A stretch of 21,565 bases of DNA, from the IMG/VR virus record IMGVR_UViG_3300031963_014750, positions 1 to 21,565 of that record. One strand, written 5' to 3'. Shown here piece after piece: positions 228 to 21,454 of this stretch. The notes below the pieces were generated by a model. It searched no databases and was not told the DNA's origin. It was given only the letters and a program-made list of their open reading frames with translations. The first letter of the stretch is position 1; every line of letters begins with the position of its first letter. Origin of the DNA: a virus. Position numbers and translations under genes: made by a program.

Positions 228-238
228 TTTAATATATA
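228..238 (+). promoter_or_regulatory. Putative phage late promoter
   Basis: TTTAATATATA ends 4 nt before the ATG at 243. The same 11-mer or a one-base variant precedes gp25, gp15, the gene at 3957, gp20 and the genes at 18259 and 18658. By analogy with the T4 late -10 element (TATAAATA), transcription would start at or next to the A of the start codon. Confidence 0.6.
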
Positions 239-242
239 GTTT

Positions 243-857
243 ATGAGATTTCTTAAAACCTTTGAGAGTTATAATGAAGATACGCTAATAATAGTTGATG
301 TTCAAAAATCATTCAGAAAGTTTTTTTCTGAAATGTATCTAAATGAACTTAAAAAATATTGTAAAAATTTTAATAATGTTTATCAAATTTGGGATAATCA
401 TCCTGATGGTAAAAACGTAGATAAAGATTATTTATATGAAGATGAACCTGAAATTCCAATACACAAAGATTTGTACCATTTTCCTAATCAAAAAGAATTA
501 ATTGAAAAAAGATATAATTACGATGTTGATGCTGATTTTTACAAGAAAATATTAGATAAAAATGTATATGAAGACATTAGCAAAAGGGAAGAAAATAAGT
601 CTTTAAAAAAAGGTGATATATTTCCAACAAAAGAAGGTACAATAATTACTTTTATCAACAACAATCACGTTTGGTTTCATTGTCCTAAAAAACTTTATGA
701 ATTACTTACCGATCTTAAAGGAAGAGAGGTAGTAATAGTTGGTGGTGCTGATGGTGAGTGTTTGGAGGATGTTGTAACAACCGCTGAAAGTTTAGGAGTT
801 AAAATAAAAAGAGACTATAAATATATCTGGACAGCCACAAGTTGTCCTATCAAATAA
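243..857 (+). CDS. Isochorismatase-like cysteine hydrolase with putative head-targeting leader
   Basis: This 204-residue protein looks like a member of the isochorismatase/nicotinamidase cysteine-hydrolase superfamily. The first core strand carries Asp19 in LIIVDVQ, and near the C-terminus the stretch VVIVGGADGECLEDVVTTA places a candidate nucleophile at Cys173, followed by the helix usual for the family. The third catalytic residue (Lys) could not be placed with confidence, so the exact chemistry and substrate are unknown. The first ten residues, MRFLKTFESY, precede the fold and match the leader found on six other proteins of this window. ATG 243 lies 4 nt after a TTTAATATATA element. The SET-domain gene follows 13 nt downstream and is probably co-transcribed. 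Possible roles are degradation of a small host metabolite or signalling molecule after injection, which is inference. Confidence 0.72.
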   Translation: MRFLKTFESYNEDTLIIVDVQKSFRKFFSEMYLNELKKYCKNFNNVYQIWDNHPDGKNVDKDYLYEDEPEIPIHKDLYHFPNQKELIEKRYNYDVDADFYKKILDKNVYEDISKREENKSLKKGDIFPTKEGTIITFINNNHVWFHCPKKLYELLTDLKGREVVIVGGADGECLEDVVTTAESLGVKIKRDYKYIWTATSCPIK

Positions 858-870
858 AGCCTAAGTGTAT

Positions 871-1323
871 ATGAAATATCTTAAATTTTTTGAAAATTTC
901 GATTACGACTCAATAGATTTACCAGAAGAAGATTTTTTATATGTACAGTCTTCTCAAATTCCAAATTCCGGAAATGGACTCTTTACATCTATAGATATAG
1001 AATGTGGTGAAGTAATATCAAAATTTATGGGTGAAGTAATATCAAATGAAGAGGCCGCAAAAAGAGCAAATGCAAAAGAAGATGATTATTTTATGATGTT
1101 GCCGTCTGGTGAAACATTAGATTGTAAGAAAACTTTTTGTTTTGCGAAATTTGCAAATGATGCGGAGGGTATCTCTTCAAATTTCAAAAATAATTCTATC
1201 ATAACAATGAATGATGATGATGAAGTTGTTTTAGTTGCTGATAGAGATATTCGTTCCGGTGAAGAAATATTTGTCGGTTATGGTAAAAGATATTGGCAAA
1301 GAAATAGTTATAGAGTAGATTAG
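871..1323 (+). CDS. SET-domain protein lysine methyltransferase with putative head-targeting leader
   Basis: This 150-residue protein shows the main landmarks of a minimal SET domain. SGNGLF (Gly34 and Gly36) is the SAM-binding N-terminal motif, NDA (96-98) with NN (107-108) stands where the NH..PN motif usually lies, and GEEIFVGYG contains the expected catalytic Tyr137. SET enzymes transfer methyl groups from SAM to protein lysines, and a chlorella-virus enzyme of about 120 residues shows that such a small domain can be active. The frame is open from a GTG at 865, but ATG 871 is preferred because it starts exactly at the leader MKYLKFFENF shared with other proteins here. No Shine-Dalgarno is seen. 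The gene lies 13 nt behind the cysteine hydrolase and overlaps the convergent gp25 stop by 4 nt. The target could be a host or phage protein and is unknown. Confidence 0.8.
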   Translation: MKYLKFFENFDYDSIDLPEEDFLYVQSSQIPNSGNGLFTSIDIECGEVISKFMGEVISNEEAAKRANAKEDDYFMMLPSGETLDCKKTFCFAKFANDAEGISSNFKNNSIITMNDDDEVVLVADRDIRSGEEIFVGYGKRYWQRNSYRVD

Positions 1324-5368: not shown

Positions 5369-5734
5369 ATGTATTTAAATAATAAAGATCTCTATGTTGA
5401 GATAATCGTATCAAAAGCACAAGGTAAACTGACCAGAAATGCTGAAAAAATGTTAGAACTTCTTGGTAAGAAAACAATCAAAAAAATGAGATATTGGTCA
5501 AATGATGATAAACTTGATTGTTATCAATCGGGTTTATTAGATATGTATCAAAATTGGTATAATTTTAATGAAGATAAATCAGTGAATGCTTTTGCTTATT
5601 TTACAGAAGTCTTTAAAAGAGGAATAGCTAAGGGTTTTAATGAGTTGTATAAGAAAAAGGGTGATAATGAGAATCAAATAAAATTAATATCTATAGAAGG
5701 TAGTAATGATGGCCAAGGACTACATTCTATTTAA
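5369..5734 (+). CDS. 55: Short gp55-like late-transcription sigma factor
   Basis: This 121-residue protein resembles T4 gp55, the sigma-70-region-2-like factor that directs host RNA polymerase to late promoters. The opening YLNNKDLYVEIIVSKAQGKL mirrors T4 YVNNKELLQAIIDWKTEL, and the stretch from MRYWSNDDKLDCYQSGLLDMYQNWYNFNEDK through AFAYFTEVFKRGIAKGFNELYKK follows the gp55 order of a helix pair, the NFDE-like motif and the AY(I/F)T helix. It is about 60 residues shorter than T4 gp55 (185). The clamp-binding C-terminal tail of T4 gp55 is not evident, and it ends SIEGSNDGQGLHSI. ATG 5369 is used because a nearby ATG at 5365 is out of frame and stops after five codons. A bidirectional terminator follows. 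Confidence 0.78.
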   Translation: MYLNNKDLYVEIIVSKAQGKLTRNAEKMLELLGKKTIKKMRYWSNDDKLDCYQSGLLDMYQNWYNFNEDKSVNAFAYFTEVFKRGIAKGFNELYKKKGDNENQIKLISIEGSNDGQGLHSI

Positions 5735-5795: not shown

Positions 5796-6869
5796 TTATA
5801 CTAATACTTCAGAATAAACTGTTTCTAACATTTTAGCAGATACTAAGTAAGGGTCACAATTTGAGGCTGGTCGTCTGTCTTCAAAATAACCTCTACCTTC
5901 AACCAAAGATTGTGCTGGAATTCTAATAGAAGTATCTCTAGTGCTATATCCATAACTAAATTCATGAATTCCTGATGTCTCATGTTCACCAGTAAGTCTT
6001 TGTTCATTATGTAGACCATAAACCTGGATGTGTTCCATATGAGTTGATTCAAGCTTTGTCATTGTTTCTTTAATCAATTCGATACCACCATCTTTTCTCA
6101 TTTCTTTAGAAGAGAAATTGACGTGACAACCGGTTCCATTCCAATCTCCTTTAATTGGTTTCGGATGTAAAGATACGTTGACATTATGTTTTTCTGCAAC
6201 TCTTTCCAAAATATATCTTGATATCCATAATTGATCAGAACCGTTCAAAGCAGTTACGGGGCCAATTTGATATTCCCATTGACCAAGTAAAACCTCAGCA
6301 TTAATACCAGAAATATCTAAACCAATCTCTAAACACATATCCATGTGCTCTTCAACTATTTGTCTTCCAATTACAGTGTCAGCTCCGATTCCGCAATAAT
6401 AATCACCTTGTGCTCTTGGTGTTTTACCAATTTCAAATCCAAGTGGAAGACCAACACCCTCACCAAATGGCAATCCTGGTTTATGAGTAAGTGTATACTC
6501 TTGCTCCCAACCAAACCATGGAGACTCGTCTTTAGTTAAATTCGTAAGATTTAACTCATCTATAACATTAGATAAATTTCTTCTATTATTTGTTGGATGA
6601 GGAGTTCCATCTGGACTAAGTACCTCACAAAATACCAATTTATTAGGATACTCTCTAAATGGGTCTTTACAGACAAAAACTGGTTTTAGTAAACAATCAG
6701 TGTTTTTCCCTTTTCCTGCCTCTGCTTGAAGAGTTGAACTTCCATCAAAAGACCACATTGCGTAATCCTCTGGATTATTTGTATCTGCTTTGTCAACAAT
6801 TTTTGTTTTACTTCTGAGTTGTTGTGGCTCAGAACCATCTAACCAAATATACTCTAATTTAATTTTCAT
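5796..6869 (-). CDS. Type II (eukaryotic-type) glutamine synthetase
   Basis: The enzyme forms glutamine from glutamate, ammonia and ATP. This 357-residue protein is the GSII type, not the longer GSI or GSIII types common in bacteria. Landmarks are the beta-Grasp SFDGSST (40-46), the metal-binding strand WFGWEQEYTL (Glu122 and Glu124), GADTVIGRQIVEEHMD, the INAEVLLGQWEYQIGP block with active-site acids, the ATP-binding KPIKGDWNGTGCHVNFS, and the C-terminal RPASNCDPYLV with the phosphate-binding Arg. All appear intact and the length is normal, so an active enzyme is expected. It stands alone between a shared terminator and a divergent gene, without the late-promoter element. A phage copy could raise glutamine for nucleotide synthesis or change host nitrogen sensing, which is inference. 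Confidence 0.96.
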   Translation of the reverse strand: MKIKLEYIWLDGSEPQQLRSKTKIVDKADTNNPEDYAMWSFDGSSTLQAEAGKGKNTDCLLKPVFVCKDPFREYPNKLVFCEVLSPDGTPHPTNNRRNLSNVIDELNLTNLTKDESPWFGWEQEYTLTHKPGLPFGEGVGLPLGFEIGKTPRAQGDYYCGIGADTVIGRQIVEEHMDMCLEIGLDISGINAEVLLGQWEYQIGPVTALNGSDQLWISRYILERVAEKHNVNVSLHPKPIKGDWNGTGCHVNFSSKEMRKDGGIELIKETMTKLESTHMEHIQVYGLHNEQRLTGEHETSGIHEFSYGYSTRDTSIRIPAQSLVEGRGYFEDRRPASNCDPYLVSAKMLETVYSEVLV

Positions 6870-9197: not shown

Positions 9198-9208
9198 TTT
9201 AATATATA
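9198..9208 (+). promoter_or_regulatory. Putative phage late promoter for the portal gene
   Basis: TTTAATATATA lies directly downstream of the terminator at 9147-9176 and ends 25 nt before the portal ATG. Unlike at several other genes, a short leader would be made here. Confidence 0.6.
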
Positions 9209-11386: not shown

Positions 11387-11820
11387 GCTGCTTGTTTTGG
11401 TAATTCAAAATAAAAGTTATCTATTTGTCCTTCTATATTTATATGTTGATTAAGTTTTAATTCTAAGCCGGACTCTACTAAGTTTTTAATTACTTTACCC
11501 CATCGTGTGTTTAATAAAATTAATTCAGCTTCTAGTTTCAAAATTTCATTTTCTAAAATTATAAAAGTTAATTTTTTCAAAGATGAACATGCATTTGTTA
11601 GTGATGTTGTGTATGTATATTCTTGGTCACTTACTGAGATATAAAAGACCATTGGATTATTTTTGATTTCTATATCAAATTGAATTTTTTTTCCTTTCTC
11701 TAATAATTGGTTGAGATTTATTTCTCTTTTGTATTTTTTCCAATTTGAAAATCTCGATAATAAATGTTCATAATCAGTTATTTTATTATTATCTAACTCA
11801 ACACTAAACTCTTTTGTCAT
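11383..11820 (-). CDS. Uncharacterised protein (145 aa) coupled to RNase R
   Basis: I do not recognise this family. The sequence suggests an N-terminal helical part (YEHLLSRFSNWKKYKREINLNQLLEKG), a strand pair (KIQFDIEIKNNPMVFYISV), a long helix (LKKLTFIILENEILKLEAELILLNTRW) and a final strand region. No catalytic motif, metal site or membrane segment is visible. Its start codon shares one base with the RNase R stop (TGATG) and its stop overlaps the next gene (ATGA), so these three genes form a tight operon, and it may be an accessory factor of the nuclease. That role is inference from coupling alone. Confidence 0.72.
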   Translation of the reverse strand: MTKEFSVELDNNKITDYEHLLSRFSNWKKYKREINLNQLLEKGKKIQFDIEIKNNPMVFYISVSDQEYTYTTSLTNACSSLKKLTFIILENEILKLEAELILLNTRWGKVIKNLVESGLELKLNQHINIEGQIDNFYFELPKQAA

Positions 11821-13697
11821 CAGAATAATTTAAAATCAATTTGTTTCTTTTCTAAATCAACTGATGAAACAATAACTTTTAAAGGATCTCCTAGTCTGAT
11901 TTTATTTCCCATTTCATCAGTGATGGTATAGTGGTCTAAATCTACTTTTACTTTACCAATACTATTATATCGAATCATTCCTTCGCATTTAGAATCTATA
12001 AGCTCTACATAGATACCCCAATCAGTGACTCCTGATACTATTCCATCAAAAACTTGACCAATTTTATCTTGTAAGAATTCTGCTTGTTTATACTTAATTG
12101 AATCTCGTTGAGCTTTTGCCGCAATTAGCTCTCTACTTGAACACCAACTGGCTTGTTCTTCAATTTTATTAGGATTTCCTTGTTTTCCTTTATTTAAAAA
12201 ATCAAAAAGAATTCTATGTGTTATTAAGTCTGGATATCTCCTAATTGGTGAGGTAAAGTGTGAGTAATGTGTGAAACCTAATCCGTAGTGTCCAATGTTT
12301 TTTATTGTGTATTTTGCTTTAGACATACATCTTGTTACTAAAGTTTCAATCATGTTTTCTTCAGGAGTTCCTTTTATTTCTTTTAGTAATTTGTTTATGG
12401 ATTTTTTTAACTCATCACCCTCGCCTTCTATTGCAACATCGTGTCCAAAATTTTGACAAACTCCTACAAGTTGTTGAAGTTTTTCCATATTTGGTGTATC
12501 GTGTATTCTATAGACATTAAACCATTGATTATTAGAAAGTATCTTAGCTACTGACTTGTTTGCAAGTAGCATAAATTCTTCAATAAGTTTGTTAGCTTCT
12601 TTTTGTTCTTTGAAATAGACACCAATCGGTTTTTTATTATCATCTGCTAACTTAAACCTGACTTCAATTCCACCCATTTCAATGGAGCCATCACTTATTC
12701 TTTTCTTTCTAATTTTTTGAGCTAGTCCGTTAAGAACTCTTATTTCATTTTGGAAATCACCTTCTTGTCCTTCAATTATTTCTTGAGCTTCTTCATAAGT
12801 AAATCTTCTATCGGAGTGAATGACAGTTTTTCCATGCCACTCATTGATAATCTTTCCATCTTTGTCAATATTAAAAACAACTGAAAATGCTAATCTGTCC
12901 TCATTTGGTTTTAATGAGCATATTCCATTACTTAGTCTTTCGGGAATCATTGGTACACATCTATCTACAAGATAGACAGAAGTTGCTCTCTTAAATGCCT
13001 CATCGTCTAATTTAGTTCCTGGTTTTACATAATGACCTACATCTGCAATATGAACCCCAACTTCAATATTATTTTCATTTATTATATTAATTGAAAGAGC
13101 GTCATCAAAGTCTCTAGCATCTACTGGATCAATTGTTAATGTAGTTATGTTTCTCATATCTCTTCTTAGAGATATTTCTTTATCAAATATAACTTCTGGA
13201 ACTAATTCCGACTCGTTAAGTACTTCTTGTGGAAAATCTACTGGTAGATTATATTCATACATTATTGAATTCATCTCTGCGTTGTTATCACCAGCATCTC
13301 CTAATATTTTTGTTATTTTTCCCTGTGGTGATTTGCTATCTTCCCATTTTGTAAGTTCTACAATTACTTTTTGACCATCCTTTGCTACTAAACCTCCTTT
13401 TATATAAAAATCGACTGATAATTTATCACTATCTGGAATTACAAATGTTGATTTTTTTCCTATTTGAACTCTGCCTACAAATTCTGTTCTGAATCTTGAA
13501 ATAACTTCTATAACTTTTCCTTCAAGTTTTTTTTCACCTTTGAATATTTCTATTCGTACATTATCTAAGTGTAAAGAATTTTTTGTGTTTTTTCTATGTA
13601 TGAATATTAATTTTTCACCTATTGTTGTTGTTGCATTTCCGTTATTCGAAAACTCTATTTGACCTTCATATCGGTCACCTTCTATTATATTTATCAT
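11820..13697 (-). CDS. RNase R/RNase II family 3'-5' exoribonuclease
   Basis: This 625-residue protein has the full RNB-family layout: N-terminal OB/cold-shock-like domains (about 1-140), the RNB catalytic domain and a C-terminal S1 domain (about 555-625). The catalytic motif TIDPVDARDFDDAL gives Asp190, Asp196, Asp198 and Asp199, with the same spacing as the four magnesium-binding Asp of E. coli RNase II. Other family blocks are HIADVGHYV, the stretch from SVYLVDRCVPMIPERL to GICSLKPNEDRLAFS, and HYSHFTSPIRRYPDLITHR. The enzyme degrades RNA processively from the 3' end. The N-terminal helix-turn-helix of long RNase R proteins is absent. Phages rarely carry this gene. It heads a coupled pair of unknown genes and lies 10 nt after a zinc-ribbon gene, without the late element. 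Confidence 0.95.
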   Translation of the reverse strand: MINIIEGDRYEGQIEFSNNGNATTTIGEKLIFIHRKNTKNSLHLDNVRIEIFKGEKKLEGKVIEVISRFRTEFVGRVQIGKKSTFVIPDSDKLSVDFYIKGGLVAKDGQKVIVELTKWEDSKSPQGKITKILGDAGDNNAEMNSIMYEYNLPVDFPQEVLNESELVPEVIFDKEISLRRDMRNITTLTIDPVDARDFDDALSINIINENNIEVGVHIADVGHYVKPGTKLDDEAFKRATSVYLVDRCVPMIPERLSNGICSLKPNEDRLAFSVVFNIDKDGKIINEWHGKTVIHSDRRFTYEEAQEIIEGQEGDFQNEIRVLNGLAQKIRKKRISDGSIEMGGIEVRFKLADDNKKPIGVYFKEQKEANKLIEEFMLLANKSVAKILSNNQWFNVYRIHDTPNMEKLQQLVGVCQNFGHDVAIEGEGDELKKSINKLLKEIKGTPEENMIETLVTRCMSKAKYTIKNIGHYGLGFTHYSHFTSPIRRYPDLITHRILFDFLNKGKQGNPNKIEEQASWCSSRELIAAKAQRDSIKYKQAEFLQDKIGQVFDGIVSGVTDWGIYVELIDSKCEGMIRYNSIGKVKVDLDHYTITDEMGNKIRLGDPLKVIVSSVDLEKKQIDFKLF

Positions 13698-14220: not shown

Positions 14221-14283
14221 TTAAAAAGTATGGTTTTATAAAGCATATATATACTTTGAACTGAAAAAAATAATTATTCGCGA

Positions 14284-16374
14284 ATGAAACCAGTTTTAAT
14301 AGTAGAAAACTCAACTAATTCTCTTATTAGAGAAAATTCTTCTAGTAAGAAGGATTATATCTTAGGAGGTACATTCACGGAATTTGGTGTTAAGAATAGA
14401 AACGAAAGAATCTATACTGCAGATAAATTCCTTCCTGCCTTAGATGAATTAAACGAAAGAATGAATAGTTTAGGTGCTGTTTATGGTGAATTTGACCACC
14501 CAGATGTTTTTGATACATCTTTGGCAAGAGCATCTCACACAATCACTAAAGCGCAATACATTAAAGAACAAAACTTAGTATCTGGTGAAATTAAACTTTT
14601 ATCAACTTATTGGGGTAAAGAGGCAAAGGCTTTGGTTGATGATGGTTGTCCAGTATTTGTATCATCAAGAGCAGCTGGTATCACTGAATCTGATGGTTCT
14701 GTTTCTTTGAAAAAACTTTTCACATATGATATAGTAGCTGACCCAGGTTTTGCTTCTGCAAAAATGAGTGTTAAAGTTTTGAATGAGTCCTTAGGATACA
14801 ATCCACAATCTAACTTTAGGATATATGAAATGTCCGACGAGTCTAAAATAAATGAATTATTCAACATGAACAAAAACGAATTCGTAACAAAAAAACAGTT
14901 GACTGATTATTCACAATACTTAGTAAATGAGATTGCCTCTACTAAGAAAGAAGTCAAAAATGCAATTTCTAAAGGAAATATGAGTCCTAAAAAATTAGAA
15001 CAACTACTTGAGTATTATGAGGAGTTAAACGAGACAAATTCTAAAGTGGTAAAATACTTAGATTATTTAGCTGAGAAAATTCAAGTTGTTGTAAATGAGA
15101 ACAAATCTCTTAAATCTACGACTGAAAAATTAGTTAAACACAATGATTATTTAGCTGAAAACTTAGAAAAGGCTATTAATTACACAGAGTATGTTGCTGA
15201 AAATTTAGATAAAAATATTGAGTACTCAGAGTATTTAGCTGAGAATCTTGATAAGAATATTTCTTATTCTGAATATATCGCTGAAAACTTAGACAAAAAC
15301 ATTTCTTATTCTGAATATTTGGCTGAAAACTTAGACAAAAATATTGCTTACTCTGAATATTTGGCTGAAAACTTAGACAAAAATATTGCTTACTCTGAAT
15401 ACATCGCTGAAAACTTAGATAAAAACATTGCTTATGCTGAGTATATAGCTGAACATGTTGATAATTCTATTGCTTATTCTGAGTATTTAGCAGAGCATGT
15501 TGAAGGTAATATTGCTTACTCTGAATACATCGCTGAACATTTAGATGATAATATTGCTTACTCTGAATACATCGCTGAAAGCTTAGATAAATCAATTTCT
15601 TATCAAGGATTAATCGTTGAAAAATTAAATGGTGGTAAATTATTCGAATCAGAAGGTGCATTTCCTTCTTTAAACGCTGCTGGTTTTGAAATGGTTGAAG
15701 ATGATGAAAAAGAAAATTCTTGGAATAAAGAAGATGATGAAGAAGCAGAATATAACATGAATGGTGTTCCAGCTGCTGAAGCGACTCACGTTCATAATAA
15801 AGAGGAAGAAGAGGAAGAATGTGGTCCATCTTCTTACGAAGTAACAGGAAAAGACGATACTGAATTATCAGAATCTATTAATAAACTTATTGAAGAAGCT
15901 AAAAAACGTAAAGTTTCTGAAACTACTGACTTGAATTTCTTAAAGTTCTTAAACAAGTCACAAGTAGATAGCTTTTATGCATTATCAGACGAAGAACAGG
16001 AAACTGTAAAACTTCACATAAACGAAAGAAGTTATTTCACACAGAAAGATGTGTTAGGTCTGATCGCAGAAGCATTATCAACTAAGAACGAGACTCTTGA
16101 AGAAAGAGTTATCAGATTGATGCCTGAAAACGTTAAGCCAGTCTGGAATCAGTTAAATGAGTCTTCTAAAAAATCATTGCTTTCTCAAGCAAGACTTTAT
16201 CCAGAAGATGTATTAAAAACTGAAGCACAAGTTGAGCATTTCTGGTTGACTAGAAATCTCAAAAAGAATGAATCAGTTACTAAGAAATTAGTTTCACATG
16301 AGGCACTTATCCAAGAAGATAAAATCTCAGACAATGAAGCTCAAGCAATCTTAGAAAGATTCAAAAATTTATAA
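14284..16374 (+). CDS. 21: Prohead protease (gp21-like) fused to a gp22-like scaffold
   Basis: This 696-residue protein begins with a gp21-type serine protease (about 25-165): GGTFTEFGVKNRNERIY, then GEFDHPD with the expected catalytic His72, then VFVSSRAAG with the catalytic Ser at 127 or 128, and YDIVADPGFASA. The rest is far longer than any gp21. It contains a helical region, eleven contiguous 14-residue repeats (about 288-442) each with [L/I/V]-A-E, a strongly acidic linker (about 475-520), and a helical C-terminal domain containing SLLSQARLYPEDVL. Repetitive, acidic and helical sequence is what a T4 gp22-type core scaffold looks like, and no separate gene 22 lies between this gene and gp23. 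Protease and scaffold would then be made 1:1 unless processed. Candidate self-cleavage sites near the N-terminus are LIVE (8) and LIRE (17). Confidence 0.85.
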   Translation: MKPVLIVENSTNSLIRENSSSKKDYILGGTFTEFGVKNRNERIYTADKFLPALDELNERMNSLGAVYGEFDHPDVFDTSLARASHTITKAQYIKEQNLVSGEIKLLSTYWGKEAKALVDDGCPVFVSSRAAGITESDGSVSLKKLFTYDIVADPGFASAKMSVKVLNESLGYNPQSNFRIYEMSDESKINELFNMNKNEFVTKKQLTDYSQYLVNEIASTKKEVKNAISKGNMSPKKLEQLLEYYEELNETNSKVVKYLDYLAEKIQVVVNENKSLKSTTEKLVKHNDYLAENLEKAINYTEYVAENLDKNIEYSEYLAENLDKNISYSEYIAENLDKNISYSEYLAENLDKNIAYSEYLAENLDKNIAYSEYIAENLDKNIAYAEYIAEHVDNSIAYSEYLAEHVEGNIAYSEYIAEHLDDNIAYSEYIAESLDKSISYQGLIVEKLNGGKLFESEGAFPSLNAAGFEMVEDDEKENSWNKEDDEEAEYNMNGVPAAEATHVHNKEEEEEECGPSSYEVTGKDDTELSESINKLIEEAKKRKVSETTDLNFLKFLNKSQVDSFYALSDEEQETVKLHINERSYFTQKDVLGLIAEALSTKNETLEERVIRLMPENVKPVWNQLNESSKKSLLSQARLYPEDVLKTEAQVEHFWLTRNLKKNESVTKKLVSHEALIQEDKISDNEAQAILERFKNL
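15145..15606 (+). repeat. Eleven 42-bp repeats coding for YSEYLAENLDKNIA-type units
   Basis: The array codes for eleven contiguous 14-residue units of the form S-E-Y-[L/I]-A-E-[N/H]-[L/V]-D-K-N-I-[A/S]-Y, flanked by degenerate copies. DNA identity is highest in the middle (about 15285-15420) and falls toward both ends, the pattern of unequal exchange. The [L/I/V]-A-E core is kept in all units, while the second half varies. Confidence 0.93.
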
Positions 16375-16396: not shown

Positions 16397-16458
16397 CGAA
16401 AAAATCGAAAAATAAAGGAAATATATAGATTATAAAACAAAAAAAAATAAATAAAATT

Positions 16459-18183
16459 ATGTCACACATTAGAATAGACAAATCTAAAGCTATCAAGAAA
16501 TGGTCTCCAGTTCTTGAGAACATGGGTGTTACTGGTGAGAGAATTGATTGGATGTCAGAATATGCTGAGTTCCACTCAATCAACGAGAACGCTTATGTGA
16601 ATGCTTCTAACGTTGCTGGTATGGGTGGTGTTGTTGCTCCACAACCTTCAACTTTAGCTGGTTCAACAATTGGTAACAATTGGGCTGGTTTTGGTGGTTC
16701 AAATGGTTCAGGAGATGTAGGTCAAAACTTACTTCCTGTAGCTATGAAAATTGCTGCTCAAACAATCGGTCTTGACCTTGTTGCTGTTAAACCATCTCCA
16801 GGTCCGAAAATCGACCTTCTTTACATCGACTTCCAATACGATGATACTCGTTTAGGAAATGAAGATGAAAGACCACAAGTTTTCAAAATTGCTCCTAAAA
16901 CAGCAGGATTGACTTCTACTAAATTAACAGCAGTTATCGCTGGTCTTAGAGCTCAGTTAGCAGCTTCTTCTCCAGTTATTAGCGAAACTACAGGTGGTTT
17001 AAATGGTAGAATTTGGAATAACATCGATACAGGTGCTGCAATTACTTCAGAGCCATCTGATAAAGAAAATAAAGTTGAATTTTTAGGATTCTCAAGAATT
17101 GATGGTTATCCAATGTTCAGAGCTTACAGACAATTCAACACGTCTCATACAGCGGTTGGTTCTGCAGCTACAACTTGGGCTTTTGATACAACAAGAAATA
17201 CATTTGATTCTACAACGTCTATGGCTTCTCAAATCATTGCTTTAGGTGGTACTGCTTTAGGTGGTGAGCCTGCAATCGAATTGGTTTCTGCGTTAGAAGA
17301 TCATATCCCTGGTTTTTCTGCAAACTGGAACTCTGGTTCAACTTCTCAATTCTCTGGACAATATCCAATGGATAGAGATCAAGATGACTCAAGATATTCT
17401 GGAGTTATCGGACCAAAAATCTCTTCTAAAACTATCGCAGTTGGTACTATTGAAGTATCTTCAGCTCTTAGAAGAACTGAAATTGAAGATATCAAAGCTA
17501 ACACAGGTATGGATATCGTTCAAAAAATGGAATCTATTCTTGTTAATGAATTATCTCAAACAATTTCTAAGCAAATCGTTGCTAAGATTTTTGAAATGGG
17601 TGATCTTAACAGAACTAGCGCGCCTTTAGCTGGATTAACTTTCTCAACTAATATTGCTAGCCAAACAATCTTTGACTTAGATACTACTTATGTAACTAGT
17701 ACAGTTGGTGGTGAAACTACTCACGCCGTACAAAGAAAACTTATCACTAAAATTGCTCACGCTTCTAACTACATTGCAACTGAAGGTCGTGTAGGTCCAG
17801 CTCAATACCTTATCACAAACGGGGGTCTTGCTGCTGCTTTAGCTGATATTTCTGGTTACACTATTAACCCAGTTAAGTCTAAGTTAAACGGACAAGGTCA
17901 ATTATATCCTGTTGGTTCAATCGGTGATATTTCTATCTACGTTGATCCATATATGAGATATAATGATAACAGAATCGTTCTTGGTAGAAAGAACAATCCT
18001 GATCAACCAGGTATCATTTTCGTACCTTATTTAATGGCACAATCAATCTCTTTGATTTCTGAGGCTACTTTTGCTCCAAGAATGTTGTTGAGATCTAGAT
18101 ATGCTGTTGCTGAAGTTGGTTGGTTCCCACAAAAACAGTTTATGACTATTAAAGTTTCTGATTCTTATGGATTATTAAACTAA
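16459..18183 (+). CDS. 23: gp23-like major capsid protein
   Basis: This 574-residue protein is the T4 gp23-type major capsid protein with the HK97-like fold that builds the head hexamers. Family stretches include NLLPVAMKIAAQTIGLDLVAVKPSPGPKIDLLYIDFQY, SSALRRTEIEDIKANTGMDIVQKMESILVNELSQTISKQIV, and the C-terminal IIFVPYLMAQSISLISEATFAPRMLLRSRYAVAEVGWFP. T4 gp23 is trimmed at its N-terminus by gp21 after a short motif ending in Glu. Here the best candidate is S-I-N-E at residue 43 before Asn44, which would remove a 43-residue propeptide. Many codons end in C (ATC, TTC, AAC), unlike neighbouring genes, as expected for the most abundant virion protein. A strong terminator follows. Confidence 0.96.
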   Translation: MSHIRIDKSKAIKKWSPVLENMGVTGERIDWMSEYAEFHSINENAYVNASNVAGMGGVVAPQPSTLAGSTIGNNWAGFGGSNGSGDVGQNLLPVAMKIAAQTIGLDLVAVKPSPGPKIDLLYIDFQYDDTRLGNEDERPQVFKIAPKTAGLTSTKLTAVIAGLRAQLAASSPVISETTGGLNGRIWNNIDTGAAITSEPSDKENKVEFLGFSRIDGYPMFRAYRQFNTSHTAVGSAATTWAFDTTRNTFDSTTSMASQIIALGGTALGGEPAIELVSALEDHIPGFSANWNSGSTSQFSGQYPMDRDQDDSRYSGVIGPKISSKTIAVGTIEVSSALRRTEIEDIKANTGMDIVQKMESILVNELSQTISKQIVAKIFEMGDLNRTSAPLAGLTFSTNIASQTIFDLDTTYVTSTVGGETTHAVQRKLITKIAHASNYIATEGRVGPAQYLITNGGLAAALADISGYTINPVKSKLNGQGQLYPVGSIGDISIYVDPYMRYNDNRIVLGRKNNPDQPGIIFVPYLMAQSISLISEATFAPRMLLRSRYAVAEVGWFPQKQFMTIKVSDSYGLLN

Positions 18184-18242: not shown

Positions 18243-18253
18243 ATTAATATATA
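18243..18253 (+). promoter_or_regulatory. Putative phage late promoter
   Basis: ATTAATATATA, one base different from the common element, ends 5 nt before the ATG at 18259 and lies directly after the capsid terminator. It would start transcription of the leader-bearing gene group separately from gp23. Confidence 0.55.
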
Positions 18254-18258
18254 AGTAT

Positions 18259-18641
18259 ATGAAATATTTAAAATATTTTGAATCAAAAAAAGTTAAATTT
18301 CCTGACATCAAAAAAATAGAAGTTGATGGTTATTTAATAATGGTTGGTCGAGACGCTAAATCTAATGACTTTTTAACCTTTAATACAGCAGAAGATGAAG
18401 ATATATGGATGCATGTCAAAGGCGTTCCTGGAAGCCATGTTGTAATTAGAGTCAGAGAAAATTTACCAACACCTGAGATATTGAAATATGCTGCGGAATT
18501 AGCTAAAAAAATAGCAAAGCTGCTAAAGAGCCATCTGTAAAAGTTGTATATTGTCAAAGAAAGTTTGTTAAGAAGGAGCCAAATATGAATGATGGTCAAG
18601 TAAAAGTTGATTATCTAAATTCAGAAGAAATAACAATTTGA
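18259..18641 (+). CDS. NFACT-R (DUF814) domain protein with leader, split by a -1 frameshift
   Basis: The first frame codes for a leader (MKYLKYFESK) followed by the NFACT-R fold: ILMVGRDAKSNDFL-like strand, then AEDEDIWMHVKGVPGSHVVIRV, then helix TPEILKYAAELA. It stops at 18540 after 93 codons with an end that does not fit the family. Moving to the -1 frame at the run of seven A (18505-18511) continues with NSKAAKEPSVKVVYCQR and KFVKK, then NMNDGQVKVDYLNSEEITI, which is the expected NFACT-R C-terminus, and stops at 18641, giving 127 residues. NFACT-R is the RNA-binding domain of RqcH/NEMF ribosome-quality-control proteins and also occurs alone. The break may be programmed frameshifting, a true mutation or a homopolymer error in the assembly. 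The late element for the next gene begins 2 nt after the stop. Confidence 0.78.
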
Positions 18642-18642
18642 A

Positions 18643-18653
18643 TTTAATATATA
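18643..18653 (+). promoter_or_regulatory. Putative phage late promoter for the peptidase group
   Basis: TTTAATATATA ends 4 nt before ATG 18658, exactly as at the gene at 243 and at gp25. It begins just after the -1 frame stop of the NFACT-R gene. Confidence 0.6.
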
Positions 18654-18657
18654 CATT

Positions 18658-20193
18658 ATGAATTTATTAAAATATAGTCAAATATTTGAAGCTGGTACAC
18701 AAAGTGTAGTTGACCAGGCTAAAGATTACAAACCAAGTGGTGGTTACAAAAGCAAAGAAGATGTCTTTGATGAATCAAAAAATGTTGATAGATCTGCTAG
18801 AATAAAAATATCTTCTGAATTAGAGAAAGTTCTTAAAAAAATGGAAGACAATGATAGTTATCTTGCTTTTGAGATGCTTTGGTTAGGTGAGTCTGATTCT
18901 AAGTACCAGAATGGTTTAGGTATAACTGATGTGACTATTTCTAATAAACCTTATTGTTTTGAAGTAACTATTGGTGGTAAAAAATTTGATATGAAGATTG
19001 GTAAATTTTTCAGATATTATTGGCCAGGATTATTAACAGAAGATGAAATTAAGTCATTCATATATCAATATAATGATATGACATCTGATAATATTGGCGA
19101 TGAATCAATTACCTCAGCTCAAAGAATAAAGGTTCCTGAGTTTTCGTATAATCCTAAAGATGTTAAAGCAACTTTTCTTTCATTAACTACAAAAACATAT
19201 CCACATTTTGATGATTGTAGACATGAAAAGGAAGTTTTAAAATTTTTACCATCTCTTGAGAGAGACCAAGTTGGAAATTATTATAAAATAATTGGTTCTG
19301 AAAAACCAACAATAATGTTTACTTGTCATTTAGATACGGCTGATAGAGAACAAAAAACGACAAAATTATTTCAAGTCAATGGTCGAGTAGTTGAAGAAGG
19401 TTATTCATTTAGATTGATAAAAAGTGGAACTGGTGATGAACATATCTATACCGACGGCTCTTCAATATTAGGCGCTGATGATAAAGCTGGTACTGCTGTT
19501 ATGTTATATATGATGGCTAATAATGTTCCAGGTATTTATTACTTCTTTATTGGTGAAGAGAGAGGTGGTATTGGTTCTAATGCTCTTTCATCTATTTATG
19601 ATAGATGTGATTATCTAACTGATGTAAAAGCTTGTGTTTCTTTTGATAGAAGAAGGACAACATCTGTTATAACACATCAATTAGGTAGACAATGTTGTTC
19701 TAACGAATTTGGTCAGGCTTTGTGTGATGAATATAATAAAAATGGATTAAATTTATCATTAGATCCAACTGGTGTTTATACAGATTCCGCGTCATTAATG
19801 GAGGACATACCAGAATGTACAAATATATCAGTTGGTTATTATAATGAACATAGAGGAACAGAAATGCAAAATATTTCTTACCTTAAAAGATTAGCTGAAG
19901 CTTCGGTAAAAGTTGATTGGAATAAACTTCCAATTAAAAGAAAAGTTGGTTATAATGAAGAGTTATTTGCTAAGCATAAAAGCATGATTAATGAGATAAA
20001 AAAGAATGTCTTTGGAATTGATGTTAAAGTTGTTGGTAAAGATGATAGAATCTTTGTTAGTTTAGACTTAGAAGAAACCGATATGGGTGAAATTTATGAT
20101 GCTCTAATTAGAGTACAAACAATATTAAACAAATATAAAATAGAGGATTTAGGATTCTTTGATGAGACATATTTTAAAATAGAATTGAAATAA
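18658..20193 (+). CDS. M28/M20-like zinc aminopeptidase with leader and extra N-terminal domain
   Basis: The C-terminal two thirds (about 175-430) is a co-catalytic zinc peptidase of the M28/M20/M42 type. All five metal ligands expected for the clan can be placed: His224 in CHLD (with Asp226), Asp274 or Asp275 in GADDKAG, Glu300-Glu301 in GEERGG, Asp330 in SFDRR, and His398 in NEHRG. Such enzymes remove N-terminal residues or cleave dipeptides or acyl groups, and the substrate is unknown. The start MNLLKYSQIFEAG is a slightly longer version of the shared leader. Residues about 15-170 form an extra domain I do not recognise, and about 60 residues follow the catalytic domain (DVKVVGKDDRIFVSLDLEE). 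It heads a plus-strand run of four genes with gaps of 1, 12 and 3 nt, all with the leader. Confidence 0.85.
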   Translation: MNLLKYSQIFEAGTQSVVDQAKDYKPSGGYKSKEDVFDESKNVDRSARIKISSELEKVLKKMEDNDSYLAFEMLWLGESDSKYQNGLGITDVTISNKPYCFEVTIGGKKFDMKIGKFFRYYWPGLLTEDEIKSFIYQYNDMTSDNIGDESITSAQRIKVPEFSYNPKDVKATFLSLTTKTYPHFDDCRHEKEVLKFLPSLERDQVGNYYKIIGSEKPTIMFTCHLDTADREQKTTKLFQVNGRVVEEGYSFRLIKSGTGDEHIYTDGSSILGADDKAGTAVMLYMMANNVPGIYYFFIGEERGGIGSNALSSIYDRCDYLTDVKACVSFDRRRTTSVITHQLGRQCCSNEFGQALCDEYNKNGLNLSLDPTGVYTDSASLMEDIPECTNISVGYYNEHRGTEMQNISYLKRLAEASVKVDWNKLPIKRKVGYNEELFAKHKSMINEIKKNVFGIDVKVVGKDDRIFVSLDLEETDMGEIYDALIRVQTILNKYKIEDLGFFDETYFKIELK

Positions 20194-20194
20194 T

Positions 20195-20764
20195 ATGAAA
20201 ATAAAAACATTTATAAAATATTTAGAAAATATCAGAGAAGATGAATTTAGTCATCTAAACAATGGTCTTTCTGCTAATAAAAAAAATGAAGCACGTTGGC
20301 CAGAAGATGATTATGAGTATGATGATGATTCTACTAAAGATTATGGTGAGTATGATGATTGGTATGATGATGAAGACGATAAATACTATTCTGGAAAAAA
20401 ATCATCAAATCCGAAGTTTGATGATGATGATGATGATGATTATGGATATGATGAAGATGATGAAGATGATGATGTTCAGCATTTAACTTATTTACTTCGT
20501 CAAATGTTTAGAAATTCAGGAGTTGATAATGTGCAAATTACCGCTAAAAGAAATGAAGACATTGTAATAGAGGTTCATATGGCTAAAAAGGAAACATTAA
20601 GAAATGTTATCAAAGTTTTCGAAGTCGCTAACAAACTTAAAAGAGATATTTTAGCTCAATATGATGCTGAATTTGACATTTGGCAATCAAAATCTGGTGG
20701 TGGGATACTTTCATTTGGTTTTACTTTAGATGAAGGCTTAGATGATGATACAATGCCTTTCTAA
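20195..20764 (+). CDS. Asp-rich leader-bearing protein (189 aa)
   Basis: The protein has three parts. The leader variant MKIKTFIKYLENI is closest in length to the T4 capsid-targeting peptide. Residues about 35-90 are extremely acidic (Asp, Glu, Tyr), including seven Asp in a row. Residues about 95-189 look like a compact alpha/beta domain (HLTYLLRQMFRNSGVDNVQITAKRN and a final ILSFGFTLDEGL) that I do not recognise. Acidic stretches of this kind could mimic DNA or bind basic proteins or metal ions, which is inference. It starts 1 nt after the peptidase stop and is therefore probably co-translated with it. Confidence 0.78.
   Translation: MKIKTFIKYLENIREDEFSHLNNGLSANKKNEARWPEDDYEYDDDSTKDYGEYDDWYDDEDDKYYSGKKSSNPKFDDDDDDDYGYDEDDEDDDVQHLTYLLRQMFRNSGVDNVQITAKRNEDIVIEVHMAKKETLRNVIKVFEVANKLKRDILAQYDAEFDIWQSKSGGGILSFGFTLDEGLDDDTMPF
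20311..20476 (+). repeat. GAT-rich low-complexity tract coding for Asp/Glu/Tyr
   Basis: GAT and GAA codons dominate this stretch, with a run of seven GAT at about 20419-20439. Simple codon repeats of this kind are prone to slippage and can change length in frame. Confidence 0.8.
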
Positions 20765-20776
20765 AAAATAAATAAT

Positions 20777-21052
20777 ATGAAATACATTAAATTATTTGAA
20801 AGTTTTAACAACGATAAAGTTAAATATTTTGTAAATAGAGTTGGTAGCCACTTTAGAATATTCGCACTCACTCCAAAAATGATGGCTGATGGTCTAACTT
20901 ATAAAGATGCTGAAGACGCTGAAGAATTGTTTGGCAAAGGTTCTCTTTGGACAAATTATGACTCTTATGAAGAAGTTGAAAACATTATAAAGAGTTTAGA
21001 CTCTGATGAATATGAACCTGAAGAAGGTGATTCTCCTGATGTATTTAATTAA
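20777..21052 (+). CDS. Small leader-bearing protein (91 aa)
   Basis: The protein starts with the clearest form of the shared leader, MKYIKLFESF, which contains L-F-E before Ser9. The remainder is a small alpha/beta protein (KVKYFVNRVGSHFRIFALTPKM, then AEDAEELFGKG) ending in an acidic tail (SDEYEPEEGDSPDVFN). I do not recognise the family. It lies 12 nt after the Asp-rich gene and 3 nt before the last gene, so all are probably one operon. With the leader removed the mature protein would be about 83 residues, a size typical for T4 internal head proteins. Confidence 0.78.
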   Translation: MKYIKLFESFNNDKVKYFVNRVGSHFRIFALTPKMMADGLTYKDAEDAEELFGKGSLWTNYDSYEEVENIIKSLDSDEYEPEEGDSPDVFN

Positions 21053-21055
21053 ATA

Positions 21056-21454
21056 ATGAGATATTTAACAGATTTTAAATTTTTTGAATCAATAGATTCT
21101 GATGTTAGTGAGATTATTAATGATATTACTCCTATTGTTAATGATATTTTATTAGAATTGAATTTTAAAAATATTGAAGGTGAGTCTCGATTTGTAAAAG
21201 TTGGTAATAGAAAAGGTCCTAATGGTTATTATATAATAATTAAACTTAAAAAAGAATCTCGTGAATTAACTTGGAATGAAGTTAGTGATGTTATAGGTGT
21301 CGTTTCTGATTATTTAAAAGATAATAAGTTTCTATATAGTTCAGAGAAGACGAAGTATTGGGGAACTGGTGTTGCCTTTGATAAGCCAAACTCTCAATAT
21401 AATGCTGGTGAGTGTAGAATGGACATATATTTTAAATATGAAGATAATATCTAA
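21056..21454 (+). CDS. Small leader-bearing protein (132 aa)
   Basis: The start MRYLTDFKFFESI is a leader variant three residues longer than the basic form, with F-F-E before Ser. The rest reads as a helix (DVSEIINDITPIVNDILLEL), a strand pair (GYYIIIKLKK), a second helix (SDVIGVVSDYLKD) and a strand ending (CRMDIYFKYEDNI), a two-layer alpha/beta arrangement I cannot assign. It starts 3 nt after the 91-residue gene. The remaining 111 nt of the window after its stop hold no complete gene. Confidence 0.75.
   Translation: MRYLTDFKFFESIDSDVSEIINDITPIVNDILLELNFKNIEGESRFVKVGNRKGPNGYYIIIKLKKESRELTWNEVSDVIGVVSDYLKDNKFLYSSEKTKYWGTGVAFDKPNSQYNAGECRMDIYFKYEDNI

Follow-up and report, generated by a model that had tools for sequence, protein, structure and literature searches.

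A recurrent N-terminal leader on unrelated proteins of T4-like huge phages, a probable capsid-targeting propeptide

Related targeting systems

Encapsulins sort unrelated cargo into an HK97-fold shell by short cargo-loading peptides, which are usually C-terminal, remain uncut and serve cellular compartments. The leader described here is a peptide of 8–15 residues that recurs at the extreme N-terminus of unrelated proteins encoded in the IMG/VR virus record IMGVR_UViG_3300031963_014750 (positions 1–21,565; this whole 21.6-kb stretch is the window, and all of its features given below lie on the + strand) and in related huge phages. It resembles the capsid-targeting sequence of the bacteriophage T4 proteins IPI, IPII, IPIII and Alt, which is cut by gp21, in being a short leader at the extreme N-terminus of unrelated proteins that ends in Glu followed by a small residue. 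One form of the leader (type B) reads aromatic-x-x-aromatic-[ILV]-x-E as in T4, and the phages share with T4 a gp23, a gp21-type protease and the accessory, variable nature of the tagged genes. According to one report, T4 has three internal proteins (IPs) and at least 10 are present across related phages, with the N-terminal signal as the only common feature (PMC12373910). According to a review, head entry of T4 IPIII requires no more than 10 residues, with residues 4 and 7 mainly governing targeting and residues 8 and 10 processing (PMC9026906).

The systems also differ. About 80–190 leader calls were made per genome here, whereas T4 has four such proteins, so that the initial annotation of the window, which had expected a set wider than in T4, understated the case. 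The huge phages show per-phage dialects and a second leader type ending in [IL]FE or FNE, their cargo is acidic on average and includes SET, NFACT-R, peptidase and tRNA nucleotidyltransferase proteins, and their protease is fused to scaffold repeats. In the phiKZ-like phage SPN3US, head proteins are also cut after Glu by a gp21-related protease, and N-terminal propeptides were proposed to target ejection proteins, but these are reported as mostly longer than 100 residues, and processing there affects eight of roughly 50 head proteins (PMC5694885), against 8–15 residues and far more proteins here. A search of the literature on capsid targeting in huge and jumbo phages, which left most subscription journals outside, gave no title or abstract describing such a leader set.

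From the sequences, the leaders are read, with a probability of roughly 80%, as T4-type capsid-targeting propeptides whose trimmed cargo would be kept in the head and ejected with the DNA. The leader probably loads dozens to nearly two hundred unrelated proteins into the head for the next host. The sequences are best explained by a capsid-targeting system of the T4 type that has grown about 20–45 fold over the four proteins of T4; the principle is known, and the scale, the two leader types and the per-phage dialects appear new.

The window and its relatives

In the window, which represents part of the genome of a T4-like huge phage, the gp23 (PF07068), portal (PF07230) and gp21-type head maturation protease (phrog_207) are all of the T4 kind, and matches to baseplate wedge, clamp loader and late sigma factor families were also obtained. 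The nearest complete relatives, of 634–735 kb, were LR745206 (634,780 bp; gp23 identity 75.1%), LR756502 (642,428 bp; 74.1%), LR756501 (735,411 bp; 53.1%) and LR756504 (636,363 bp; 52.2%). A survey of huge phages placed the four largest complete genomes in the Mahaphage clade, with hosts predicted to be Bacteroidetes (PMC7162821). A 111-kb sibling contig contained the window at all sampled points.

Leaders of the window

All seven leaders listed by the initial annotation, in the genes starting at 243, 871, 18259, 18658, 20195, 20777 and 21056, were found in the sequence; a slash marks the predicted cut. The leader MRFLKTFE/S (243..266) belonged to gene 243–857, whose 204-residue protein had no match in Pfam, PHROG, NCBIfam or PDB. 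Its orthologs in LR745206 (MKYIRTYES) and LR756502 (MKYIKTYEN) kept the leader, and the LR756501 ortholog began MKVIKFSDYLKES. MKYLKFFE/N (871..894) preceded the SET-domain protein of gene 871–1323 (PF00856, 1.2e-12), the LR756502 ortholog of which began MRYLKTFES. Behind gp23, MKYLKYFE/S (18259..18282) was found on the NFACT-R gene 18259–18540, MNLLKYSQIFEA (MNLLKYSQIFE/A; 18658..18690) on the peptidase T-like gene 18658–20193 (phrog_4191, 9e-66), MKIKTFIKYLEN (MKIKTFIKYLE/N; 20195..20227) on gene 20195–20764, MKYIKLFE/S (20777..20800) on gene 20777–21052 and MRYLTDFKFFES (MRYLTDFKFFE/S; 21056..21088) on gene 21056–21454. The protein of gene 20195–20764 has an acidic linker and a C-terminal fold without assignment, and Foldseek with its model gave no match at E ≤0.001. 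The best mutual BLAST match among the seven mature parts had an E value of 0.18, in agreement with the claim that the proteins are unrelated. The peptide rather than the DNA is conserved, as had also been proposed, since leader codon use was close to that of the genome, with modest shifts, in two genomes. Two window open reading frames (ORFs), judged by eye to encode a glutamine synthetase (5796–6869) and an RNase R-like protein (11820–13697), were without a leader.

The pattern M[KR]x(2-8)[FL]E[SNADGH] matched 5 of the 26 ORF starts of the window, compared with 0.30 expected from shuffled N-termini, and none of its 12 internal MK or MR sites. When hidden Markov models (HMMs) trained on the relatives were used, leaders were called in 6 of the 26 ORFs (decoys 0.4), the peptidase at 18658 being missed, and in 20 of the 111 ORFs of the sibling contig (decoys 1.0). 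The simpler [FL]E[SNA] pattern suggested by the initial annotation was a poor counter genome-wide because it misses other dialects. In LR756501 it gave 6 matches against 5.2 expected; about 121 HMM calls were made there, many of them ending in INE.

Genome-wide counts and dialects

Among ORFs of at least 45 residues, HMMs built per genome and applied at a 5% decoy rate called leaders in 167 of 954 (LR745206), 190 of 983 (LR756502), 82 of 940 (LR756504) and 121 of 1032 (LR756501) genes, where shuffled decoys gave expectations of 6.6, 8.2, 4.0 and 5.8, respectively. A stricter count, which asked for a plausible Glu site under a lenient rule, retained 149, 163, 65 and 96. The entire LR756500 genome had 64 calls among 685 genes at one threshold (decoys 9.2). 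An unsupervised comparison of N-terminal 20-mers also gave more similar pairs than shuffled sequences in LR745206 (5439/1090), LR756502 (7356/1077), LR756504 (3081/1268), LR756501 (3981/1223) and part of LR756500 (540/249), with 119/87 in Tenacibaculum phage PTm1. In PTm1, which has a similar GC content, 5 of 313 ORFs were called and none was leader-like by eye.

The leader was carried by otherwise unrelated proteins. BLAST of the mature parts gave 158 families among 165 proteins in LR745206, 179 among 187 in LR756502, 77 among 82 in LR756504 and 109 among 118 in LR756501, and the largest paralogous groups had 4–5 members. Paralogy was rejected as the cause on the LR745206 figure. Leaders were not confined to the stretch after gp23, a position cited in the initial annotation, and runs of leader genes occurred throughout the genomes; neighbouring pairs of leader genes numbered 71, 88, 18 and 44 in LR745206, LR756502, LR756504 and LR756501, compared with 29.3, 36.7, 7.2 and 14.0 by chance.

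In LR745206 and LR756502, the type A leaders MKYLKxYKIFES and MKYLKKFNES stood beside the type B form MIKKWNQFINES, whereas LR756504 used MKHLKRFKTFINES, LR756501 used MIKKYNTYINEG and LR756500 used MKYIKEYEDFINEA. The predicted cut peptides had 7–17 residues, with modes of 8–9 and 11 in LR745206 and LR756502 and of 9–11 in LR756501; those of the T4 IPs have 10–19.

Two wider origins were considered and rejected. A general T4-like feature was rejected since the leader-type DNA pattern was rare in 13 other phage records, a scan that limits the high-copy form alone because the pattern also misses the IPs of T4 itself. A host feature was rejected since the type A pattern had one exact match in genome_contigs against 42 IMG/VR stretches. 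That match lay on a contig of a metagenome-assembled genome that resembled the huge-phage loci in carrying another leader-like ORF together with an SbcD-like one, and it was judged by eye to be phage.

T4-type residues and predicted cut sites

The strict rule [FYW]xx[FYW][ILVM]xE matched residues 1–18 in 28, 28, 25 and 60 proteins of LR745206, LR756502, LR756504 and LR756501, and residues 41–58 in 3, 5, 3 and 1. In T4 the corresponding numbers were 4 and 2, and the matches included IPII and IPIII. The T4 key residues (aromatic residues 4 and 7, a hydrophobic residue 8 and Glu10) were kept in a subset of leaders. The T4 gene 61.1 (NC_000866, 18966–19130) begins MKTFKEFIKED, fits the strict rule and is a candidate for a further T4 head protein.

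The residue after Glu was Ser, Ala, Asn or Gly in 103 of 162, 108 of 169, 40 of 69 and 51 of 102 leaders in the same genome order, compared with 69 of 298, 65 of 282, 67 of 300 and 92 of 386 non-leaders, when the Glu site was chosen independently of the residue that followed.

The ends of the leaders matched conserved candidate sites in two head proteins, gp23 (INE/N) and the protease-scaffold protein ([LIV][FN]E/[SNAG]). The latter, a prohead protease fused to scaffold-like repeats, is the proposed processing enzyme and docking core (14284..16374; phrog_207, 5.9e-30, with a weak PF03420 match below the cut-off). It contains 12 repeat units of the type YSEYIAENLDKNIA (15055..15579), followed on the 3′ side by the predicted processing site KLFES (15637..15651), the same motif as at leader ends. 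A VEKLN-type anchor after the repeats was present in 67 of 80 orthologs, and in all 67 anchored orthologs the junction read [LIV][FN]E[SNAG] (LNES 30, LFES 19, LFEN 7, LNEA 3, VFES 2, INES 2, LNEN 2, LNEG 1 and INEG 1). The exchange of Phe and Asn before Glu was common to this junction and the leader subtypes. A second conserved candidate site, LNESLGY (14779..14799), followed the protease domain and read [LI]NESLG[YF] in 78 of 80 orthologs. The YSEYIAE segment of the repeat unit resembles the T4 leader segment TYQEFIAE, which hints at one interface for leader and scaffold.

The predicted propeptide of gp23 (PF07068) comprised residues 1–43 and ended SINE/N (16459..16587). Glu43 and Asn44 were invariant in five aligned gp23 sequences, and among the 74 loci with a gp23 ORF, a pattern search read INE/N in 57, and the remaining 17 contained NENAY. 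Across more distant genomes, the site read SINE/N, QINE/N, QMNE/N, QIHE/N or ELYE/N. Their position and the comparison with T4 suggest that the gp23 and protease-scaffold sites are cut sites. Small stand-alone proteins resembling the N-terminal propeptide region of gp23 were encoded in LR745206 (291407–291880), LR756502 (315773–316270) and LR756501 (276342–276932).

Gain and loss of the leader among orthologs

In many relatives the NFACT-R gene stood directly behind gp23, and an HMM leader was called in 53 of the 58 loci with an ortholog. When 34 orthologs were aligned, the Glu was invariant (34/34), the preceding residues varied in length and dialect, and KK-FP-I followed. In the AlphaFold model of tagged NFACT-R, residues 1–8 (MKYLKYFE) had predicted local distance difference test values below 50 and the remainder mostly above 90; the folded part matched RqcH with a TM score of 0.80 on the query. 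The window copy of this gene was truncated by a 1-nucleotide (nt) deletion relative to a sibling locus (L281), where the protein has 127 residues, by either a sequencing error or a real loss.

By pattern search, 13 of 65 orthologs of the peptidase behind NFACT-R carried a leader and the others began without one, and the third gene behind gp23, after NFACT-R and the peptidase, had an HMM leader in 48 of 55. Among reciprocal best hits between LR745206 and LR756502, the leader was present in both members of 32 pairs, in one member only in 10 and 10, and in neither of 308. The leader genes were accessory, as an ortholog in LR756502 existed for 42 of 167 leader genes but for 318 of 787 other genes of LR745206.

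Upstream motif

The genes at 243, 18259 and 18658 were preceded by a AATATATA motif (231..238, 18246..18253 and 18646..18653), which stood 4, 5 and 4 nt before the ATG, respectively. Motifs of the AATATATA type also lay upstream of gp23 (16420..16427), the portal gene (9201..9208) and the protease-scaffold gene (14246..14253), and in the window, as in several relatives, [AT]ATATATA lay before the genes for gp23, the portal and the protease. A homolog of the T4 gp55-like late sigma factor was encoded at 5369..5734 (phrog_234, 1.6e-06).

Where 25 nt or more before the gene were free, the motif preceded 62 of 68 leader genes in LR745206, 66 of 76 in LR756502, 50 of 55 in LR756504 and 37 of 39 in LR756501, compared with 110 of 348, 119 of 352, 96 of 444 and 155 of 371 other genes. 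The enrichment was replicated in the gp23 loci of IMG/VR (83 of 87 leader genes vs 344 of 596 others); the non-leader genes counted in these loci, as in the motif scan of several relatives, had at least 80 residues. Leaving the 6 nt nearest the start codon out of the count understates the association (35/167 vs 109/787, 49/190 vs 107/793, 33/82 vs 86/858 and 32/121 vs 165/911). The motif stood before 17 of 20 T4-homologous structural genes and 10 of 38 replication genes. A motif shared by leader and head genes accords with late transcription, which is expected of head cargo and is not strictly defining. In the main class the motif ended 4 or 5 nt before the ATG, which suggests leaderless late mRNAs beginning at the ATG. 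In LR756502 (record 24005–25572), two divergent leader genes shared a near-palindromic region in which each strand holds the motif and the initial leader codons.

Tagged proteins

Family scans covered 150 of the 167 leader proteins of LR745206 (the first 150 by score) and 117 of the 121 of LR756501, leader genes at the edges of the 20-kb slices and LR756502 lying outside them. The 150 leader proteins matched 18 Pfam families and 19 PHROGs, and 150 random non-leader proteins matched 69 and 105, respectively. The leader families included poly A polymerase head, guanylate cyclase, histone H1-like Hc1, NFACT-R, M15 peptidase, methyltransferase, NUDIX and Acb1; the non-leader families included, among the matches listed, ribonucleotide reductase, tRNA synthetases and DNA polymerase. 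The LR756501 leader proteins matched 28 Pfam families, with PPK2, methyltransferases, radical SAM and HD among the matches listed. The single Acb1-like match (6.7e-05) among the 150 proteins is no more than a hint of anti-defence, and PADLOC reported two families among 150. For ten leader proteins that were larger or conserved, tRNA nucleotidyltransferase was the one family convincingly recognised.

Judged by the detectable T4 homologs, the leader was not found on most cytoplasmic early proteins, a distribution that the initial annotation had named as contradicting head targeting. Among T4 homologs detected by phmmer in the four genomes, 1 of 38 of the replication type was flagged, by a call from a start codon inside the gp43 homolog that was judged a false positive, and none of 20 structural ones.

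Proposed mechanism and alternatives

The proposal builds on the recurrence of the leader on unrelated proteins, the T4-type residues of a subset, the matching sites in head proteins, the promoter class and the gain and loss of the leader between orthologs. The N-terminal 8–15 residues would dock the protein on the protease-scaffold core during head assembly, the shell would close around it, the prohead protease would cut after the leader Glu, and the trimmed protein would stay in the head and be ejected with the DNA. The leader would then serve this clade as an all-purpose export signal attached to many unrelated accessory proteins. Docking, cleavage and presence in the virion are inferred, as are injection and a role in taking over the host and countering its defences.

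Head targeting with trimming after Glu, as put forward in the initial annotation, finds good sequence support in the T4-type residues of the subset, the gp23 and protease-scaffold sites and the small residue after Glu, and further in the unfolded leader in one model, the motif of the head genes and the absence of leaders from the detected replication and structural homologs. The close analogy with the IPs is weakened by the acidic cargo, and the term "injected enzymes" stays conjectural because most leader proteins are without recognisable function.

Several observations weigh against this interpretation. Many type A leaders, such as MKYLKTFES, lack the hydrophobic residue three positions before the cut and fail the strict T4 rule, and the looser rule A was weakly specific (137 vs 35, 154 vs 29, 60 vs 35 and 111 vs 49). 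The mature proteins were acidic, with mean net charges per residue of −0.055, −0.040, −0.027 and −0.033 in the four genomes, and some were very large, up to 1284 residues, whereas the T4 IPs are described as basic (PMC9026906). Since the small and basic trait of the T4 IPs was not found for the leader proteins of the four genomes, these are classed by leader type and not as an IP family. In 81 IMG/VR loci found by pattern, the motif was not enriched overall (type A 6 of 32, type B 14 of 29, background 179 of 516); most leader genes found in this way had another ORF just upstream (26 of 28 type A, 12 of 28 type B). About 5% of the HMM calls are expected at decoy level and some were visibly wrong, being signal-peptide-like or internal starts, and the ORFs of the relatives came from a simple greedy caller rather than a trained gene finder.

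The alternative that survives best is that the leader docks on the scaffold or core and is cut, the cargo being assembly factors or proteins cleared from the head and not injected. It would leave sequence evidence identical to that of capsid targeting, and in T4 the core components gp22, gp67 and gp68 undergo processing and are for the most part removed (PMC9026906). It is nevertheless improbable for a set that takes up to 19% of the genes, is poorly conserved in close relatives and has enzyme-like functions.

The chance is also small, and put slightly lower, that the leader is a short amphipathic segment that stays uncut and directs proteins elsewhere, for instance to a membrane or a replication compartment. 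The leaders of type A are amphipathic, not all of them fit the T4 processing rule, and in the model of the 20195 protein residues 3–11 formed a lone low-confidence helix. An uncut address does not sit well with the small residues right after Glu, the invariant Glu behind a variable leader in the 34 NFACT-R orthologs, the matching head-protein sites or the head-gene motif.

A hitch-hiking 5′ expression cassette of late promoter and start region, with the peptide as a by-product, would explain the sharp spacing of 4–5 nt between motif and ATG and the near-identical 5′ regions of the one divergent LR756502 pair. It is very unlikely, as leaders were also carried by genes with another ORF just upstream, a setting in which the motif was no commoner than for other genes (12 of 81 vs 50 of 369), leader codon use was close to that of the genome, and Glu and the following residue are selected. 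Paralogous expansion or a start-codon or compositional artefact can be practically dismissed, for although small paralogous groups exist and MK starts are common, it is contradicted by the family counts, the shuffled decoys and the PTm1 calls.

For capsid targeting, a fuller version is slightly favoured over its negation. The 80–190 proteins (8–19% of the genes) would form a second head proteome in the largest phages known, marked by a modular signal of two leader types that can be attached to new genes and whose phage dialect co-varies with the head protease, and a large, changeable set of ready-made effectors (tRNA repair, ribosome-quality-control-like, methyltransferase, peptidase and anti-defence proteins) would be injected ahead of all phage gene expression. 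For most huge-phage genes no function is known. Should the leader mark head cargo, a rule at the sequence level would by itself list, for each phage, the proteins delivered to the host together with the DNA, and these would be prime candidates for counter-defence and take-over. The signal of a handful of T4 proteins would then scale to a fifth of a genome, which raises the question of how so many proteins fit, are sorted and get through the tail, and loading tags usable in phages of the Bacteroidetes type would be at hand.

Additional observations

The cultured Chryseobacterium phage MA9V-1 (OR050627) had at least five leader-like starts ending in NE[AS], at 95824, 106131, 122538, 126193 and 176174. 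Such starts include MKNFFSFINEA, MKTFFNFVNES, MKTFTCFINEA, MKNFFVNEA and MRDFFINEA. The MA9V-1 paper offers sodium dodecyl sulfate–polyacrylamide gel electrophoresis.

In LR756501, the motif DPYGEE-x-W occurred 105 times in 90 predicted proteins, and it was absent from five other phage genomes checked. Of these occurrences, 39 lay within 15 residues of the C-terminus. Leader proteins made up 44 of the 90 carriers, compared with 77 of 942 non-carriers. The motif was also present on two small protease- or scaffold-like proteins and is possibly a second head-core tag.

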